In this document: piece by piece, positions 16,814 through 26,394 of the stretch | Layout: every line of letters starts with the position of its first letter | How positions within the stretch are numbered: the first letter of the stretch is position 1 | Assembly (NCBI GenBank): GCA_903927955.1 | Contig: CAIYOW010000139.1 | Span: 1-33,996 of the forward strand | Source of the DNA: an uncultured Methylococcaceae bacterium | GTDB taxonomy: Bacteria; Pseudomonadota; Gammaproteobacteria; Methylococcales; Methylomonadaceae | Direction of reading: 5' to 3' | DNA length: 33,996 bases | Made by a program: the position numbers and the translations under genes | Notes under the pieces: model-generated | Seen by the model: only the letters and a program-made list of their open reading frames with translations | Told to the model about the DNA's origin: nothing | Databases searched by the model: none

Positions 16814-17215
16814 ATGAAAAATATTTTATTGCTTGCTGCGGCAATGTTGGTTTCGGGCAGTGTTTTGGCAGGTACTGACCACTATCTGCTACGCGAAGGT
16901 AGCCATGTGCATCATTTAAAAATCACTACGCTGAACGAAGACATTTATGTAAGTTCTGATGTCGATTTTGAACCCAATACCACAGAAGCCGGTTCACACA
17001 GCTGTTCTGCCGACATCAAGGGCGAGGCCAAACGCGTTGCTGACAACGAGTTGTTGCTGAAAAAGCATTCAGAAAGCGATGCCACTTATTGCGAATTGAA
17101 AATTCACCTAAGCCCAACCGGCGCAAAAATAGAGCAATCCAAAGATTGTGATAATTTTGCTGCGGGTATTTGCCATTTTTCCAGCGATGATAAAGAGTTG
17201 TTAAAAATAAAATAA
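16814..17215 (+). CDS. Small secreted cysteine-containing hypothetical protein
   Basis: MKNILLLAAAMLVSGSVLAG signal peptide; AAAGGAG ribosome-binding site upstream; ~133 aa. Confidence 0.7.
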   Translation: MKNILLLAAAMLVSGSVLAGTDHYLLREGSHVHHLKITTLNEDIYVSSDVDFEPNTTEAGSHSCSADIKGEAKRVADNELLLKKHSESDATYCELKIHLSPTGAKIEQSKDCDNFAAGICHFSSDDKELLKIK

Positions 17216-17439
17216 TCGCGCGTGACTACCTTCTTTGCCATTAATCCCCGCCATGAGTGTTGACGGCTTAACTGTATTGGCGGGCGATTCTTAGTGTGTT
17301 CCGGCAGCAGCCCGCTAACATTGCCCGGCACACATCAGGTAAGCCGCCATTGTGCATAGCTTGCAAAACTGCGGTTTTTCTTTACTTGCCCATTTAATAA
17401 TATTTTAATAGTTCCAATTTTATTACCGTGAGATGAAGA

Positions 17440-17670
17440 ATGGCTAAAGCACCTAATAAATCAGCCTCTAAAACAGAACCATCAAGTGCTTCCGAGCTTG
17501 AACATGATGATGAAGAGGTCTTTGATGGCGGCGATTTCCCGCTGGCAGAAGGTTTGGTTGAAGATGAAACCATAAAAAGGGATGCCCGTAGAAAAATTGA
17601 GATTTATTGGGAAAAAAAACGCCTCCGAGAGCAATTTGATGATTTTGACGAATCCGAATTTGGCTTTTAA
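17440..17670 (+). CDS. Small acidic protein, PA3496-family-like
   Basis: Acidic N-terminus followed by DARRKIEIYWEKKRLREQFDDFDESEFGF, like the DARRxIExYxExxRLRE family signature. Confidence 0.6.
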   Translation: MAKAPNKSASKTEPSSASELEHDDEEVFDGGDFPLAEGLVEDETIKRDARRKIEIYWEKKRLREQFDDFDESEFGF

Positions 17671-17760
17671 TCGTGCTTGCTAGCGACGTAGACACACCCA
17701 TTCAGTTTGTTAATGGCGTCGGCATCGTGCCGCGCCTTTTGCAAAGGTAAGAGCCATCCG

Positions 17761-17805
17761 GCTGTAGGTGCTTGGTTATGCCTGCGACACCCTACGGCAA
17801 CGGGG
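17761..17805. repeat. Hairpin repeat, copy A
   Basis: GCTGTAGGTG...CACCCTACGGC inverted repeat enclosing GTTATGCCTGCGACACC; related to copy B at 17950-17986. Confidence 0.4.
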
Positions 17806-17947
17806 CTGCTTTGTGGCAAGATTACCCCGCCCACCAGTAGTCGAATCAATCTCATCCATCCAGCCTGTCTTACACTTTCTTCTTGGGTAAATTTAGCTCC
17901 CAAATCCGTATTCAGTAGAAAAATTCACTGACACAGTGCAAAGCAAG

Positions 17948-17986
17948 CGGCGTAGCTATGCCCGCGATACCGTACAGCCGCAGGGG
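17948..17986. repeat. Hairpin repeat, copy B
   Basis: GGCGTAGCTATGCCCGCGATACCGTACAGCC; 19/24 identity to copy A across GyTATGCCyGCGAyACCsTACrGC. Confidence 0.4.
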
Positions 17987-18058
17987 TTGTGCCAATTGCG
18001 ACCTTTCTTTTAAAGCCCCCCCGTTTGTCTTAACCGCCCGCAAAATTTTCTGCAAATC

Positions 18059-18074
18059 TTTACAGTTTTTTTAC
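18059..18074 (+). promoter_or_regulatory. Candidate KdpE operator
   Basis: TTTACAGTTTTTTTAC resembles the E. coli kdp site TTTATACTTTTTTTAC (recalled); lies ~85 nt upstream of the first ORF of the kdp operon. Confidence 0.5.
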
Positions 18075-18094
18075 TGGGATTGCCATTACACTTC

Positions 18095-18118
18095 ATGCTG
18101 TTGTTTTGACAGCAGCAT
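18095..18118. promoter_or_regulatory. Hairpin in kdp leader
   Basis: ATGCTGTTGT-TTTG-ACAGCAGCAT, 10-bp stem with one G.T pair. Confidence 0.4.
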
Positions 18119-18158
18119 TGTTGATTGTTAACGCAGTTATTTTTGTAAAGGCGGGTCT

Positions 18159-18251
18159 ATGAGTGCTATCTATATTGTATTGACAGTGATTTTCTTTATC
18201 GGCACCGTCGCACTGGTTTATGCCTGTGAAAAATTAAGGGGGCAGGCATGA
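18159..18251 (+). CDS. 30-aa single-TM small protein upstream of kdpF
   Basis: MSAIYIVLTVIFFIGTVALVYACEKLRGQA*; stop overlaps kdpF start (ATGA). Absent from the supplied ORF track because of its size. Confidence 0.7.
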   Translation: MSAIYIVLTVIFFIGTVALVYACEKLRGQA

Positions 18252-18337
18252 GCGGATTGTATCTGTTAAGTGCAGTGCTAGTGTTGGCGATTTTCGTTTA
18301 CTTGGTCGCTGCACTGTTTTATCCGGAGAAATTCTAA
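18248..18337 (+). CDS. kdpF: K+-transporting ATPase subunit F
   Basis: MSGLYLLSAVLVLAIFVYLVAALFYPEKF*, typical KdpF; stop overlaps kdpA start (TAATG). Confidence 0.93.
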   Translation: MSGLYLLSAVLVLAIFVYLVAALFYPEKF

Positions 18338-20157
18338 TGACCAGCAACAGTTTTTTTCAAGTGGGGTTATATCTGTTCACCCTGTTGGCTCTGGTCAAAC
18401 CCTTAGGGTGGTATATGGCAAGGGTCTATGAAGGCGAGCCAGTGGGTTTGAACCGAATATTGCTGCCATTGGAAGCGTTGGTTTATCGTCTGGCTGGCGT
18501 GGATTTAAAACAAGAAATGCGTTGGACAGAGTATGCCATTACCATGCTGGTGTTCAATTTATTGGGGTTCTTGGCGGTGTTTGCTTTGCAAAGTCTGCAA
18601 GCCTACTTGCCGTTGAACCCGCAAAAATTGCCCGCTGTCAGTCCTGACTCGTCATTCAATACCGCCGTTAGTTTTATCACCAACACCAATTGGCAAGCTT
18701 ATAGCGGTGAAGTGACCATGAGCTATCTGACCCAGATGCTGGGCTTGACCGTACAGAACTTTGTTTCCGCCGCTGCGGGCATGGCGACATTGGTTGCCTT
18801 GATGCGCGGGTTTACCCGCCGTAAAGCCAATATTATCGGCAATTTTTGGGTGGATATGACCCGTAGCACTTTATATATTTTGATGCCGTTGTCCTTGGTT
18901 TTGGCTTTGGTGCTGGTCGGGCAGGGCGTGGTGCAGACTTTTAAGCCCTACCAAACCGTACCGTTGCTTGAAGCGGTTAGCTATCAACAACCCAAGCTGT
19001 GCGAGGATGGTGTGGTCTTGCAAGATGCCAATGGCAAGCCGGTGATGGAAACGGTGCAAGCCAATGAACAAGTCATAGCGGTGGGTCCCGCCGCTTCGCA
19101 AGTGGCCATTAAGCAGTTGGGTACCAATGGTGGCGGTTTTTTTAATGTCAACTCCTCTCATCCGTTAGAAAACCCAACCCCATTGAGCAACTTCTTGGAA
19201 ATGCTCGCGATACTGCTTATTCCTGCCGCACTGTGCTACACCTTTGGTGTCATGGTGGGTGATGCCCGCCAAGGCTGGACGGTTTTGGCGGCAATGGGCT
19301 TGGTTCTGGTCGCGCTCATTTTGGTGGAAGTGTCGGCGGAACAAGGCGGCAACCCTGCGTTGGCGACTTTGGGTGTCGACCAATCGGCCAATGAGGCGCA
19401 ATCGGGAGGCAATACCGAAGGCAAGGAAACCCGCTTCGGCATCACCAACTCGGCATTGTGGGCAGTGGTCACTACGGCGGCCTCCAACGGTTCGGTCAAT
19501 GCCATGCATGATTCCTTTAGTCCCATTGGCGGGCTAGTGCCGATGTGGTTGATGCAATTGGGCGAGGTGATTTTTGGTGGCGTGGGTTCAGGCCTGTACG
19601 GCATGATTATGTTTGCGATAGTGGCGGTGTTTGTGTCAGGTTTAATGATAGGCCGTACTCCGGAATATCTTGGCAAAAAAATCGAAGCGTTTGAGATGAA
19701 AATGGCCGCCATCACTATTTTGATACCACCCTTGATGGTTTTGGGCGGCAGTGCCATTGCAGTTATGGTGGAGTTCGGCAAGGCGGCGGTTTTTAATCCC
19801 GGCGCACATGGTTTCAGCGAAATATTGTATGCGTTTTCGTCAGCGGGCAACAACAACGGCAGTGCTTTTGGTGGCTTGTCGGCAAACACGCCATTTTACA
19901 ACGCCATATTAGGTGTGGCTATGCTATTTTCGCGTTACTGGCTGGCTGTGCCGGTGCTGGCTATCGCCGGTTCTTTGGCTGCAAAGAAAACCATACCGGT
20001 CGGTCCAGGCACCTTACCCACACATACGCCACTGTTTGTCATGTTGCTGATAGGCACGGTACTGATGGTGGGGGCGCTGACATTTATCCCTGCCTTGGCC
20101 TTAGGCCCAATGGTGGAGCAGTTGCACCTGTTAGGTGTCGGCTCTGTTAAAGGCTGA
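18337..20157 (+). CDS. kdpA: K+-transporting ATPase subunit A
   Basis: 606 aa; SFITNTNWQAYSGE, QLGTNGGGFFNVNSSHPLENPTP, SSAGNNNGSAFGGLS selectivity-filter-like motifs. Confidence 0.97.
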   Translation: MTSNSFFQVGLYLFTLLALVKPLGWYMARVYEGEPVGLNRILLPLEALVYRLAGVDLKQEMRWTEYAITMLVFNLLGFLAVFALQSLQAYLPLNPQKLPAVSPDSSFNTAVSFITNTNWQAYSGEVTMSYLTQMLGLTVQNFVSAAAGMATLVALMRGFTRRKANIIGNFWVDMTRSTLYILMPLSLVLALVLVGQGVVQTFKPYQTVPLLEAVSYQQPKLCEDGVVLQDANGKPVMETVQANEQVIAVGPAASQVAIKQLGTNGGGFFNVNSSHPLENPTPLSNFLEMLAILLIPAALCYTFGVMVGDARQGWTVLAAMGLVLVALILVEVSAEQGGNPALATLGVDQSANEAQSGGNTEGKETRFGITNSALWAVVTTAASNGSVNAMHDSFSPIGGLVPMWLMQLGEVIFGGVGSGLYGMIMFAIVAVFVSGLMIGRTPEYLGKKIEAFEMKMAAITILIPPLMVLGGSAIAVMVEFGKAAVFNPGAHGFSEILYAFSSAGNNNGSAFGGLSANTPFYNAILGVAMLFSRYWLAVPVLAIAGSLAAKKTIPVGPGTLPTHTPLFVMLLIGTVLMVGALTFIPALALGPMVEQLHLLGVGSVKG

Positions 20158-20188: not shown

Positions 20189-22261
20189 ATGAGCAATAAA
20201 TCTATTCTGATGTCTTTGGGTGACCCACAAATTCTGGGAGATGCCTTTGTTGAATCTTTCCGTAAGCTTGCCCCACAGCAGCAATGGAAAAATCCGGTGA
20301 TGTTTGTCGTCTATATCGGCAGTATGCTGACCACCTTGCTGTGGCTGGCGGCCCTTAAGGGTAACAGCAGCGACCCGGCCGGTTTTATTTTGGCGATCAC
20401 CTTATGGTTATGGGGTACGGTACTGTTCGCTAACTTTGCTGAAGCGGTTGCCGAAGGGCGCAGCAAGGCGCAAGCGGCCTTCTTGCGTAGTGCCAAGCGC
20501 GATATTGCCGCGAAAAAACTGGATGAGCCCCGTTATGGCGCGAATTATTCCAAAGTTGCCGGTTCCAGCTTGCGGCGCGGTGATGTGGTGTTGATTGAAG
20601 CAGGGGATTTTGTCCCGGCTGATGGTGAAGTGATTGAAGGTGTCGCTTCGGTGGACGAAAGCGCGATCACTGGTGAGAGTGCGCCAGTGATCCGCGAATC
20701 TGGCGGCGATTTTAGTTCGGTGACATGGGGAACACGGGTATTGTCTGATTGGCTGGTGGCATGCGTCACCGCCAACCCCGGCGAAGCGTTTTTAGACCGC
20801 ATGATTGCGATGGTGGAAGGGGCCAAACGGCAAAAAACACCTAACGAAATAGCCTTGACCATTTTGTTGGTGGCCTTGACGCTGGTGTTCCTGATGGCGA
20901 CCGTCACCCTGTTGCCGTTTTCCCTGTATGCCGTCGCCAGTTCAGGTTCAGGGCAACCTATCACCCTGACAGTACTGGTAGCTTTGTTGGTGTGCCTGAT
21001 CCCGACCACTATCGGCGGCCTGTTGTCAGCCATTGGCGTGGCAGGTATCGGACGCATGATGCAAAAAAATGTCATTGCCACTTCAGGCCGGGCGGTGGAA
21101 GCAGCAGGCGATATCGATGTGTTGTTGTTGGATAAGACCGGTACCATCACCTTGGGCAACCGGCAGGCTTCAGCTTTTATAGCCGCTCAGGGAGTAACCG
21201 AAAGAGAGCTGGCGGATGCTGCACAGGTCGCTTCACTGGCGGATGAAACCCCCGAAGGCCGTAGCGTGGTGATTTTGGCAAAACAAAAATACGGCTTTAG
21301 GGAGCGCGATCTGAATTCATTAGGTGCCACCTTCATCCATTTTAGCGCGCAGACCAGAATGAGCGGTGTCAATGTCGATGGAAGGCAGATACGCAAGGGT
21401 GCCGCTGATTCCATTCGCGCCTATGTTGAAGAGCTGGGTGGCAAATTTCCACCAGAACTGTCCAAAGTGGTCGATGATGTGGCGCGTCGCGGCAGCACCC
21501 CGCTGGTGGTGGCGGAAGGTACGCGTGTGCTGGGGGTCATAGAGCTTAAGGACATTGTCAAAGGCGGCATCAAGGAACGCTTTGCCGAATTGCGGCAAAT
21601 GGGCATTAAGACCATCATGATTACCGGTGATAACCGTCTGACTGCCGCCGCCATTGCCGCCGAAGCGGGAGTAGATGATTTTTTGGCTGAAGCGACCCCA
21701 GAGGCTAAGCTTAAATTAATCCGCCAATACCAGGCGGAAGGCCGTTTGGTGGCCATGACAGGGGATGGCACTAACGATGCGCCCGCTTTGGCGCAAGCCG
21801 ATGTGGCGGTGGCAATGAACAGCGGTACGCAAGCCGCAAAAGAAGCGGGCAATATGGTGGATTTGGATTCTAACCCTACCAAGCTGATTGAAATTGTCGA
21901 AACTGGCAAGCAAATGCTGATGACGCGTGGCGCATTGACCACTTTTTCCATTGCCAATGATGTTGCCAAATATTTCGCCATTATCCCCGCCGCGTTCGCC
22001 ACCACATATCCGGTTTTGGACGTGTTGAACGTGATGCACTTGGCAACACCTGCCAGTGCCATTTTGTCGGCGGTTATCTTTAACGCTTTAATTATTGTGG
22101 CATTGATTCCCTTGGCCTTAAAAGGCATTAAGTATAAGCCCGTTGGTGCCGCCACACTGCTACAAAACAACTTATTGGTTTACGGTGTAGGTGGCTTGAT
22201 AGTCCCATTTATTGGCATAAAAGCGATAGACCTGGTTTTGGTTTCGCTGAGCCTCGTTTAA
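20189..22261 (+). CDS. kdpB: K+-transporting P-type ATPase subunit B
   Basis: 690 aa; [70 protein letters not shown]. Confidence 0.98.
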
Positions 22262-22272
22262 AGGAGTTGGCA

Positions 22273-22848
22273 ATGCTTAAACATTTTAGACCTGCGATTA
22301 TTTTATTTTTAATTTTTACGGTGCTGACCGGCGTGGTTTATCCGGCTTTGGTGACGGGTTTGGCCCAATTGCTGTTCCCTAATCAGGCCAATGGCAGTTT
22401 AATGGCGGGCGTAAACGGCAACACCACCGGCTCTCGTCTAATCGGGCAGCCGTTCAATAGCCCTGGCTATTTTTGGGGGCGACCTTCCGCTACCAGTCCC
22501 TTCCCTTATAACGCGGGGGCTTCCAGTGGCTCCAACTTGGGGCCAACTAATCCGGCCTTGCTGGATGCGGTCAAAACCCGGGTGATCGCGTTGCAAGCCG
22601 CCGATCCAGATAATAAAACGGCAGTTCCGGTTGATTTGGTCACTGCCTCAGGCAGTGGACTAGACCCTCACATCAGCCCGGCGGCGGCTGAGTATCAAAT
22701 CAGCCGTGTGGTACAAGCCCGACACCTTTCAGCGGAAAAAATCCGCGAATTGGTTGCCACCCATACCGAACCGCGTCAATGGGGCATGTTCGGTGAGTCC
22801 AGAGTTAATGTCCTGACTTTAAACCTAGCGTTGGACACATTGCATTAA
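22273..22848 (+). CDS. kdpC: K+-transporting ATPase subunit C
   Basis: [63 protein letters not shown]. Confidence 0.97.
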
Positions 22849-22915: not shown

Positions 22916-25702
22916 ATGCAAGCAACTATCAATAATGACCGACCCGATCCAGACCAATTGCTCGCCCGTGTCGCGCGCGACCAAATACGCGCTAGCCGTG
23001 GGCGGCTGAAGATATTTTTTGGCGCATCGGCAGGTGTCGGCAAAACCTACGCCATGTTGCTGGCAGCTAAGGAAAAACGGGCGGAACATATCGACATTGT
23101 CGTTGGCTTGGTGGAGACGCATGGACGTAAAGACACAGCTGCCTTGTTGGAAGGGCTGGAAATGTTACCGCCTAAGCTGATTGACTACCGGTGTACTAGC
23201 TTGTACGAATTCGACTTGGATGCCGCACTTAAGCGTAAACCTTCCATCATCTTGGTGGATGAACTGGCGCACACCAATGCTCAAGATTGCAGGCATCCTA
23301 AGCGCTGGCAGGACATAGAAGAGCTTTTGGAAGCGGGCATAGATGTCTATACGGCACTTAATGTCCAGCATTTGGAAAGCCTTAACGATGATGTCAGCCA
23401 GATTTCCGGTATCCGGGTTTGGGAAACGGTGCCGGATACGGTGTTTGAAGGGGCGGACGAGGTTGAATTGGTGGATCTGCCGCCCGAAGAGCTGCTCAAT
23501 AGGCTTAAAGACGGTAAAGTGTACTTGCCGCAACAGGCCAAAGAGGCCGCCCAGCATTTTTTCCGGAAAGGCAACTTAATTGCCCTGCGTGAACTGGCTT
23601 TGCGACAAACTGCCAGCCGGGTCGATGCGCAAATGCTGAATTACCGCGAAGACCACTGTATCCGTGAAGTCTGGCACGTCAATGAGCGTATTTTGGTGTG
23701 CATTGGCCCCAATGCCTTGGCGGAGCGGCTGGTGCGTGCTGGCAAACGCTTTGCCACCAGTTTACGCGCGGCATGGATAGTGGTCTATGTGGAAACGCCA
23801 GAACTGCAACGCCTGTCCGCACCACAACGGGATAGCGTGTTGCGCATATTGCGTCTTGCCGAACAACTAGGTGCTGAAACGGTGACCCTGAATGCACCGC
23901 AAATGAGTGAGGCCATCATTAAGTTCTCTAATGAACGCAATATCACCAAAATTGTCATGGGCAAACCGACCCGTCGGGGTTGGCAGCGGTTAGTGCTGGG
24001 TTCTGTGGTGGATGTGCTGATAAGCGATGCCCATAATATCAACCTGTATTTGTTGGGTAGCCCCAAGCCCGGGCAGGGCAATGACATAAGCAAGCAAGAT
24101 ACCTCCCTATACCGGAAAAACCCATTGCCTGGGCTAAGCAAACGCCCGGCGCAAAAAGTCAACAGCAAAGGTTATGTCTGGGCTGTTATTGTCACCGTTG
24201 CCAGCACCGCGTTGGCTTATCTGATGTTCGGACGCTTTGAGCTGGCCAATTTAGTCATGGTGTTTTTATTGGGGGTGGTGTTTACGGCCACCCGTTTTGG
24301 TCGTGGCCCATCAATTTTTGCCTCATTTTTAGGGGTGGCCATTTTTGACCTATTGTTCGTACCGCCTTATTACAGCTTTACCGTCGGAGACAGCCAATAT
24401 TTAGTGACCTTGTTGGCTATGTTGATCGTTGCAATGCTGATTAGCAGTCTGATGGCGAATGTCCGTTCCCAAGCCAAAGTGGCGGGGCATAGGGAGCGGC
24501 GGGCGACCGTTTTGTATGCCATGAGCAAAGAACTGACTGCCAGCCAAAGCGAAGATGAAATCGTGCGTGCCGCAGTGCATCATGTCCATGCCGAATTTGG
24601 CAGCCGCAACGTCATTCTTTTCCCGGATGCCAATGGCCGGGTTGTTTATCCGGCGCCCTCTGCCGTTGCTGAATCTTTGCACACGGCTGATCTGAGCGTC
24701 GCGCAATGGGTGATGGATCACAACGAGATTGCCGGACAAGGCACACATACTTTGCCCGGTGCCGAAGCGATTTATTTTCCTTTAAGCGACAAGGCAACCA
24801 TGCTGGGGGTTTTGGTGTTGCTGCCGGTCAATTTGCGCCGGGTGTTCTTGCCCGAACAACAAAAGTTATTGGAAACTTTTCTTGGGCAAATTGCCCAAGC
24901 CATTATCCGTGTGCGCCTGACCGAACAGGCCCGCAAAAGCCAAGTGGCAATGGAAGCCGAGCGTCTTCGTAATTCCCTGCTCAGTTCCATTTCCCATGAT
25001 TTGCGTACGCCCTTGGCCACCATTGTCGGTTCCGCCAGCACCTTGGTGGAAGAGGATAACGCACTTAATCCAGAAGATAAGCGGGAACTTAACCGAGCCA
25101 TTTACGAAGAAGCACAACGCATGTCTAGCTTGGTCAATAATATTTTGGAGATGGCACGTCTGGATGCAGGGGCAGTGGAACTCAACAAGCAGTGGTATCC
25201 GCTCGATGAAATTATTGGTATTGTATTGACACGCTTGCAAAAACGCTTGGCGGGTCGGCAAGTCAGCGTCAAACTGCCGCCCGGCATTCCTATGGTGTTT
25301 GTCGATGCGGTGATGATCGAACAAGTGCTGGTCAATTTGCTCGAGAATGCCTTGCGTTATACGCCAGATGGCAGTTCTTTGGATGTTATGGCCAGCTCCG
25401 CCGTTGGTATGGTGGATATAGCCTTGGCTGACCAAGGTTTAGGGCTTCCTCCAGGCGATGAAAACAAGGTGTTTGAAAAATTTTATCGGGTACGTAAAGA
25501 AGCCGCGCAAAGCGGTGTGGGCTTAGGGCTGGCAATTTGCAAAGCGATCATAGAAGCGCATGGCGGTAGTATCCGCGCAAGCAATCGGCTCGGCGGAGGC
25601 GCACTGTTTTTGTTTAGCATCCCTCAACCTGATATGCCGCCCGCTATGGTACGGGAAGAGCAGGGCTACTTGATTGACCAGAGTGTTATTGGGCAGCCAT
25701 GA
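22916..25702 (+). CDS. kdpD: Osmosensitive K+ channel sensor histidine kinase
   Basis: 928 aa; FFGASAGVGKTYAML, VDELAHTN, USP-like domain, 4 TM region, SSISHDLRTPLATIVGSASTL H-box. Confidence 0.97.
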   Translation: MQATINNDRPDPDQLLARVARDQIRASRGRLKIFFGASAGVGKTYAMLLAAKEKRAEHIDIVVGLVETHGRKDTAALLEGLEMLPPKLIDYRCTSLYEFDLDAALKRKPSIILVDELAHTNAQDCRHPKRWQDIEELLEAGIDVYTALNVQHLESLNDDVSQISGIRVWETVPDTVFEGADEVELVDLPPEELLNRLKDGKVYLPQQAKEAAQHFFRKGNLIALRELALRQTASRVDAQMLNYREDHCIREVWHVNERILVCIGPNALAERLVRAGKRFATSLRAAWIVVYVETPELQRLSAPQRDSVLRILRLAEQLGAETVTLNAPQMSEAIIKFSNERNITKIVMGKPTRRGWQRLVLGSVVDVLISDAHNINLYLLGSPKPGQGNDISKQDTSLYRKNPLPGLSKRPAQKVNSKGYVWAVIVTVASTALAYLMFGRFELANLVMVFLLGVVFTATRFGRGPSIFASFLGVAIFDLLFVPPYYSFTVGDSQYLVTLLAMLIVAMLISSLMANVRSQAKVAGHRERRATVLYAMSKELTASQSEDEIVRAAVHHVHAEFGSRNVILFPDANGRVVYPAPSAVAESLHTADLSVAQWVMDHNEIAGQGTHTLPGAEAIYFPLSDKATMLGVLVLLPVNLRRVFLPEQQKLLETFLGQIAQAIIRVRLTEQARKSQVAMEAERLRNSLLSSISHDLRTPLATIVGSASTLVEEDNALNPEDKRELNRAIYEEAQRMSSLVNNILEMARLDAGAVELNKQWYPLDEIIGIVLTRLQKRLAGRQVSVKLPPGIPMVFVDAVMIEQVLVNLLENALRYTPDGSSLDVMASSAVGMVDIALADQGLGLPPGDENKVFEKFYRVRKEAAQSGVGLGLAICKAIIEAHGGSIRASNRLGGGALFLFSIPQPDMPPAMVREEQGYLIDQSVIGQP

Positions 25703-26394
25703 CTGGTGTAAACCCTGTGGTTGTGGTGATAGAAGATGATCCGGCTATACGTTTGTTTTTACGCACCGGTCTTGCCGCCCACCACTTCAAGGTGTTCGAG
25801 GCGGAGAGCGGTCAACAAGGTATTATTGAAGCGGGGGTACGTAAACCCGATCTGATTATTCTTGATTTGGGCTTGCCGGATATGGATGGCGTTGAAGTTA
25901 TCAAAAGTATCCGCGCATGGTCGGGGCTGCCCATTATCATTTTGTCGGCCCGCAGCACCGAGCAACATAAAATCGATGCACTGGATGCCGGTGCCGACGA
26001 TTACTTGACCAAGCCGTTTGGTTTGGGTGAATTGCTGGCAAGGATACGGGTCGCCCAGCGCCATTCGGTCGGCAGCCCTGCCCAAGAGGAAAATGGGGTG
26101 TTTGTCACCGGTGCGTTGCAAGTCGATTTGCTCAAGCGGCAAATTTTTGTTGGTGGCAACGAAGTCCACCTGACCCCCATACAGTACCGTTTGTTATCTT
26201 TACTGGTCAAAAATGCCGGTAAAGTCTTGACCCACCAATACCTGCTTAAGGAAGTCTGGGGGCCGTCCTATAAAGATAATTCACATTACCTGCGGATATA
26301 CATGAGCCAGCTAAGGCAAAAGCTAGAAACCGATGCAACCCGCCCCGAATATCTGCTGACCGATTCGGGTGTAGGTTATCGGCTTAAAGTCTGA
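25699..26394 (+). CDS. kdpE: Response regulator (OmpR/KdpE type)
   Basis: 231 aa; IEDDPAIRLFLRTGL, LDLGLPDMDGV, winged helix; ATGA overlap with kdpD. Confidence 0.96.
   Translation: MTGVNPVVVVIEDDPAIRLFLRTGLAAHHFKVFEAESGQQGIIEAGVRKPDLIILDLGLPDMDGVEVIKSIRAWSGLPIIILSARSTEQHKIDALDAGADDYLTKPFGLGELLARIRVAQRHSVGSPAQEENGVFVTGALQVDLLKRQIFVGGNEVHLTPIQYRLLSLLVKNAGKVLTHQYLLKEVWGPSYKDNSHYLRIYMSQLRQKLETDATRPEYLLTDSGVGYRLKV

Follow-up and report, generated by a model that had tools for sequence, protein, structure and literature searches.

The window, that is, the whole stretch of 33,996 nt of DNA from an uncultured Methylococcaceae bacterium that was analysed, harbors a kdp locus in which a short ORF precedes kdpF. 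We annotated the following features, all on the forward strand:

18059..18075, + strand: KdpE-box-like direct repeat TTTACAGTTTTTTTACT, 14/17 identity to the E. coli KdpE site
18087..18092, + strand: -10-like TACACT (TAGACT in most relatives), in a block that stays conserved when the 5' regions of 15 relatives are aligned
18147..18151, + strand: Shine-Dalgarno-like AAAGG before the short ORF, read from the sequence; AAGGNGG is conserved in relatives
18159..18251, + strand: gene for a 30-aa single-pass membrane peptide, cistron 1 of the kdp operon, ATG start
18248..18337, + strand: kdpF, 29 aa (PF09604, E=3.1e-7; TIGR02115, E=3e-7)
18337..20157, + strand: kdpA (PF03814, E=4e-241)
20189..22261, + strand: kdpB, P-type ATPase subunit (PF00122 and PF00702, operon position)
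22267..22848, + strand: kdpC (PF02669, E=1.5e-77)
22916..25702, + strand: kdpD, sensor kinase (PF02702, E=5e-95)
25699..26394, + strand: kdpE, response regulator, overlapping the kdpD end (receiver and DNA-binding sequence, read by eye, and position)

The ORF at 18159-18251 translates as MSAIYIVLTVIFFIGTVALVYACEKLRGQA and is present exactly as an earlier, sequence-only reading of this DNA had written it. The two overlaps claimed there are also borne out by the coordinates. The TGA of the short ORF (18249-18251) shares bases with the kdpF ATG (18248-18250), forming ATGA, and the last base of the kdpF TAA (18337) is the first base of kdpA, giving TAATG with a one-base overlap. Upstream of the short ORF, on the same strand, an acidic 76-aa ORF (MAKAPNKSASK...) is found at 17440-17670.

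The repeat TTTACAGTTTTTTTACT was the sole match in the window at up to 3 mismatches to the E. coli KdpE site, which we take to be TTTATACTTTTTTTACA; 0.22 such matches were expected. This KdpE-like box lies about 100 nt before the start of the short ORF in the window and in most relatives. In the 5' region of the relatives, AAGGNGG and the block TTTACAGTTTTTTTAC...TTAGACT are conserved, and most of the remainder is variable. The kdp transcript is predicted to start a few bases downstream of TACACT. Because the conserved upstream block resembles the E. coli KdpE site, the short ORF is most likely the first cistron of a KdpE-controlled mRNA made from this predicted promoter. An imperfect hairpin, ATGCTGTTGTTTTGACAGCAGCAT, is located between the KdpE-like box and the short ORF (18095-18118), and relatives often display GCTGGAATCAGC near the equivalent position. 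An Rfam search of 17000-19000 gave no match at E<=1, so no known riboswitch explains this region.

The encoded peptide belongs to a family with one membrane helix and the logo MD-x2-[YF]-L-x5-FF-A-x4-[YL]-x3-C-[ED]-[RK]-L. Its members are mostly 26–34 aa long, typically 26–27 or 30 residues. Conserved positions are D2 (83%), L6, F12 (70%), F13 (86%) and Y/L19, followed in the C-terminal part by C23 (67%), E/D24 (78%), R/K25 (71%) and L26 (80%). The window peptide, encoded next to kdpF and kdpA like the family, carries Y5, FF at 12-13, L19, C23, E24, K25 and L26; it departs from the logo with S at position 2, where D is commoner, and with I at positions 6 and 14. There is a single strongly hydrophobic membrane-spanning stretch, with a mean Kyte-Doolittle value of 2.5 over 19 residues. 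In the first 5 residues of 176 members we counted 152 acidic versus 2 basic residues, and the C-terminal part is net basic. Since the N-terminus is acidic and the end net basic, the peptide probably sits N-out, C-in in the inner membrane, according to the positive-inside rule. Periodicity of conservation along a helical face was not significant (646/2000 shuffles). Searches of Pfam, NCBIfam and PDB sequences gave nothing significant for the family peptide, and the family has no Pfam or NCBIfam model.

We then compared the window's own genome with 40 relatives, from the same genus up to the same order. Of these 41 genomes, 18 gave a peptide match next to kdpA, and a more divergent copy (L027) is present in the 19th genome with kdpA (G039), so that all 19 kdpA genomes of the set have the peptide. 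It lies at -178..-85 from kdpA in almost all of these relatives and starts at -193 in two. The genomes of the set that lack kdpA contained no convincing peptide, and matches away from kdp were weak (E>=0.18). Nonsynonymous over synonymous differences per site (pN/pS, uncorrected distances, pooled over 15 loci) came to 0.44 in frame and to 0.45 for the start of KdpA. The same DNA gave 0.93 and 1.12 in the two other forward readings and 0.99 in antisense, and none of 500 column shuffles reached a pN/pS as low as 0.44. The frame is thus under purifying selection close to that on KdpA, and the ORF at 18159-18251 is almost certainly the genuine protein-coding gene that it had been claimed to be.

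For a wider view, KdpA searches of Pseudomonadota genomes, named genome contigs and plasmids yielded 216 usable kdp upstream regions; phyla beyond Pseudomonadota were sampled via the named contigs and plasmids. Iterated profiles of the peptide and of KdpF, run in competition, detected the peptide in 177 and KdpF in 213 of the 216 loci. The peptide was present in 93/124 loci of the whole-genome sample, in 9/13 of the plasmids and in 75/79 of the named contigs. The named-contig set, ranked by closeness to a consensus KdpA, does not amount to an unbiased census. Not one of 2682 antisense decoy fragments matched the family profile, even at E<1. The sequence-only reading, which had asked for such a survey, had suggested VxFFxxxxxxVxxCExL-type peptides upstream of kdp genes in some bacteria. 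The pattern of a central FF and a C-E-x-L end is real, and it is far wider than that reading could show.

Proteobacterial carriers include Methylobacter, Rhizobium, Bradyrhizobium, Methylobacterium, Sphingomonas, Chromobacterium and Pandoraea. Further carriers are found among Acidobacteria, Binatia, Planctomycetes, Chloroflexi, Nitrospira, Myxococcales and Gemmatimonadetes, together with a Bacteroidetes bin, Deinococcus radiodurans and Streptomyces (taxon assignments of MAGs are those in the record titles). Besides the 216-locus set, the peptide occurs in Nonomuraea, Arthrobacter, a Rhodococcus (sp. ZPP) and Deinococcus psychrotolerans. The profile search of the 216 loci did not detect it in those with Enterobacterales-type and Pseudomonas-type KdpF, nor did a profile search detect it in the sampled Listeria, Lactiplantibacillus, Enterococcus, Halobacterium and one Kapaibacterium. 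Some of the 39 negatives (e.g. L047, L136, L139, L142) contain an ORF that looks similar by eye and scores below threshold. Presence of the peptide is strongly clustered on the KdpA tree, with 5 changes versus 12.6 in shuffles.

The specificity of the linkage was tested with a 72-member profile against 299 whole genomes. All matches with E<=1.3e-4 but one adjoin a detected kdpA, and therefore the family is bound to kdp. In the lone exception (G359), the contig carrying the peptide breaks off a short distance beyond kdpF. Weaker matches (E>2e-4) were partly located inside large unrelated ORFs and partly diverged true copies.

The stop of the peptide gene overlaps the next start in 61 of 176 loci, and the others mostly show gaps of 0–18 nt. 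The gene order is not constant. At L254 (genome G454) and at two Deinococcus loci (L251, L159) the kdp operon is rearranged, kdpB preceding the peptide gene and kdpA. G454 has the order kdpB-peptide-kdpA-kdpC-kdpD, with the peptide shortly after kdpB and no recognised kdpF; in Deinococcus psychrotolerans the peptide begins 8 nt past the kdpB stop, with kdpF-kdpA next. Two loci (L143, L146) display the order kdpF-peptide-kdpA. Our search found no natural fusions of the peptide with KdpF or KdpA. A long open frame around the G454 peptide, considered as a fusion, proved to be merely an open frame overlapping kdpB in another frame. Since the peptide stays beside kdpA through these rearrangements and keeps its protein sequence, its best interpretation is that of a functional partner to the pump.

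Additional small ORFs were noticed near kdpA in some of the loci. Bradyrhizobium-type loci contain a third small hydrophobic ORF of 29–38 aa between kdpF and kdpA, at about -109 to -4 or -13 from kdpA (L084, L085, L087, L088, L095, L104, L185, L189, L193, L197, L199, L200, L210), and these operons may thus encode three micropeptides. In one phylum branch (groups f192/f202: L083, L086, L094, L097, L098, L115), the kdpF-kdpA gap holds, within the final ~250 nt upstream of kdpA, an open frame whose end repeatedly resembles FRMG[IL]xxDYPxFxRK. This is possibly another small kdp-linked protein.

What could the peptide do? It is probably an accessory part of the Kdp pump, either a (fifth) single-pass subunit or a modulator. 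Its gene, first in the K+-starvation-induced operon, would be translated into a single-pass inner-membrane micropeptide, which would pack against membrane helices of the pump (KdpA, KdpF or KdpB) through its FF motif and its cytoplasmic C-[ED]-[RK]-L end. As an accessory subunit it would stabilise, assemble or tune the pump, and would represent a second KdpF-like part; the Enterobacterial pump would work without this part or would have lost it. It is quite possible, though we say so tentatively, that the peptide is a fifth ancestral subunit, kept with kdpA in most sampled phyla and lost in the Enterobacterial lineage that supplied the biochemical and structural KdpFABC models, in which case the widespread pump would be five-part. 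That it is a stoichiometric fifth subunit can likewise be suggested only with reserve. Pumps of the Enterobacteria type and of Pseudomonas seem to function in its absence, so the peptide cannot be universally required for Kdp pumps.

The single helix is conserved as a hydrophobic sequence and gives no direct hint of the partner. Nearly all genomes with kdpA also have KdpD, which makes co-occurrence a weak test of pump versus sensor. Among the kdpA genomes of the phylum sample, G389 is the one complete carrier with no KdpD match, and kdpD-bearing genomes of the Enterobacteria type and Pseudomonas type are without the peptide. For these two reasons we lean to the pump rather than the sensor KdpD as the putative partner.

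The strongest of the alternatives, although unlikely, is a regulatory micropeptide that binds and inhibits or tunes KdpB/KdpA, as phospholamban and sarcolipin do with P2A pumps, or that modulates KdpD. Animals have small single-helix regulators of P-type ATPases (reviewed in PMC10654040), a two-hybrid assay showed binding of M. tuberculosis KdpF to KdpD (PMC3618439), and kdpD is also found in nearly all carriers. However, the linkage is to kdpF/kdpA and not to kdpD, at least one complete carrier genome lacks a KdpD match, and the kdpD-bearing genomes without the peptide argue in the same direction.

The proposed accessory part of the pump shares several features with KdpF: a size of ~30 aa, a single membrane helix, a gene directly before kdpA and a common transcript. 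One could imagine a diverged KdpF duplicate that shares the role of KdpF, in a pump with two KdpF-like helices. Equal size, equal place and a similar N-terminal M[SD]xxYL would fit with this, as would the weak match of the two profiles over 23 columns and the presence of the peptide in G454, where kdpF is unrecognised. Yet the hhalign probability of that match is just 12%, and nearly all loci keep both genes side by side. The C-termini also differ: KdpF ends in [YR]PE[KR]F and the family peptide in C-[ED]-[RK]-L, the window peptide closing with C-E-K-L-R-G-Q-A. In the window, the true KdpF sits between the peptide and kdpA, so the peptide gene is not the one immediately before kdpA. The window peptide had no match to PF09604 or TIGR02115 at E<=10, and among 72 relatives we found 1 weak match to a KdpF model (NF011326, E=0.027). 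The peptide and KdpF profiles each separate their own members, in agreement with the earlier claim that the two are distinct, and duplication with a shared role is improbable.

One annotated 'KdpF' (WP_226922329, Roseateles sp. XES5, L152:1502-1675) was examined as a peptide-KdpF fusion and rejected. It is KdpF extended in its own frame to an upstream start, and the extension runs over the true peptide gene, MSDVIFLALGCGAFIVFAAYAGALDRL, which is read in another frame.

It is very unlikely that the gene is a translated leader whose translation merely couples or times ribosome entry into kdpF, with the peptide itself idle. The ATGA in the window and the overlapping starts in about a third of the loci are what such a leader would produce, but the majority of loci have no overlap with kdpF, the amino acid sequence is kept across phyla, and the upstream region is without an Rfam element. 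In Deinococcus and G454, moreover, the gene is internal to the operon, behind kdpB, and two loci have it after kdpF. The sequence-only reading had considered that the ORF might lack conservation or serve as a coupling device only; the first is contradicted by the conservation across phyla, and the second by the loci in which the peptide gene is not the leader of kdpF. A chance ORF or artefact without coding function, as suggested by the short hydrophobic ORFs that six-frame listings often contain, has hardly any probability left and is, judging from the sequences, already refuted by in-frame selection, position, multi-phylum conservation and the zero decoy matches.

The claim that the gene is unannotated holds in part. 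On alphaproteobacterial plasmids it is absent from the annotation or entered as 'hypothetical protein'. In Mycetohabitans, a 34-aa family member directly before kdpF and kdpA is called 'potassium ABC transporter ATPase' (e.g. WP_212667346). This name is a misnomer, as the protein belongs neither to the ABC transporters nor to the ATPases. Our literature search found no description of the peptide gene, and the papers it returned on a small subunit all concern KdpF. A single-helix accessory peptide of a transporter is a known kind of protein; this family, and how far it extends, seem not to have been described in the literature searched. AcrZ, CydX, sarcolipin/phospholamban and FXYD are likewise single-helix peptides associated, through their genes or in a complex, with a large membrane enzyme, a comparison of how they work, with no sequence relation to our peptide detected.

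The kdpZ and kdpY genes of C. acetobutylicum encode small hydrophobic peptides. They belong to the operon kdpZYABCXDE and, as cited in PMC5401905 from Treuner-Lange et al. 1997, are two genes that lie before kdpA on one K+-regulated transcript. They would be the clearest precedent, likened by gene position and description. The family profile matched none of the Bacillota loci that we sampled (Listeria, Lactiplantibacillus, Enterococcus, Niallia). Niallia taxi (L252) has a 37-aa ORF in the equivalent place, MEDLLMLFIIGMSLTSMYELIKWSARKTARNEQEGQK, which overlaps kdpF at -238 to -124 from the kdpA match and does not match the family profile.

For Mycobacterium smegmatis (PMC5401905) and Caulobacter (PMC8552747), '5' UTRs' of about 100–120 nt have been reported ahead of kdpF, the kdp mRNA of Mycobacterium smegmatis beginning 120 nt upstream of that gene. 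These '5' UTRs' are long enough to hold the peptide gene, which may be a candidate explanation for them. Rhodococcus sp. ZPP, a relative of Mycobacterium smegmatis, carries the gene.

For KdpFABC, a textbook ion pump, many structures are available, and the structural work consulted here was done on the E. coli complex (PMC6255902). Since the peptide follows Kdp in many phyla and was undetected in Enterobacteria-type operons, the textbook Enterobacteria-type pump may miss an accessory part carried by most other versions. A family profile model would allow the annotation to be corrected in many genomes. If most bacterial Kdp operons encode an extra conserved helix, models of how the pump is assembled, regulated and shut off will have to be tested in a carrier species.
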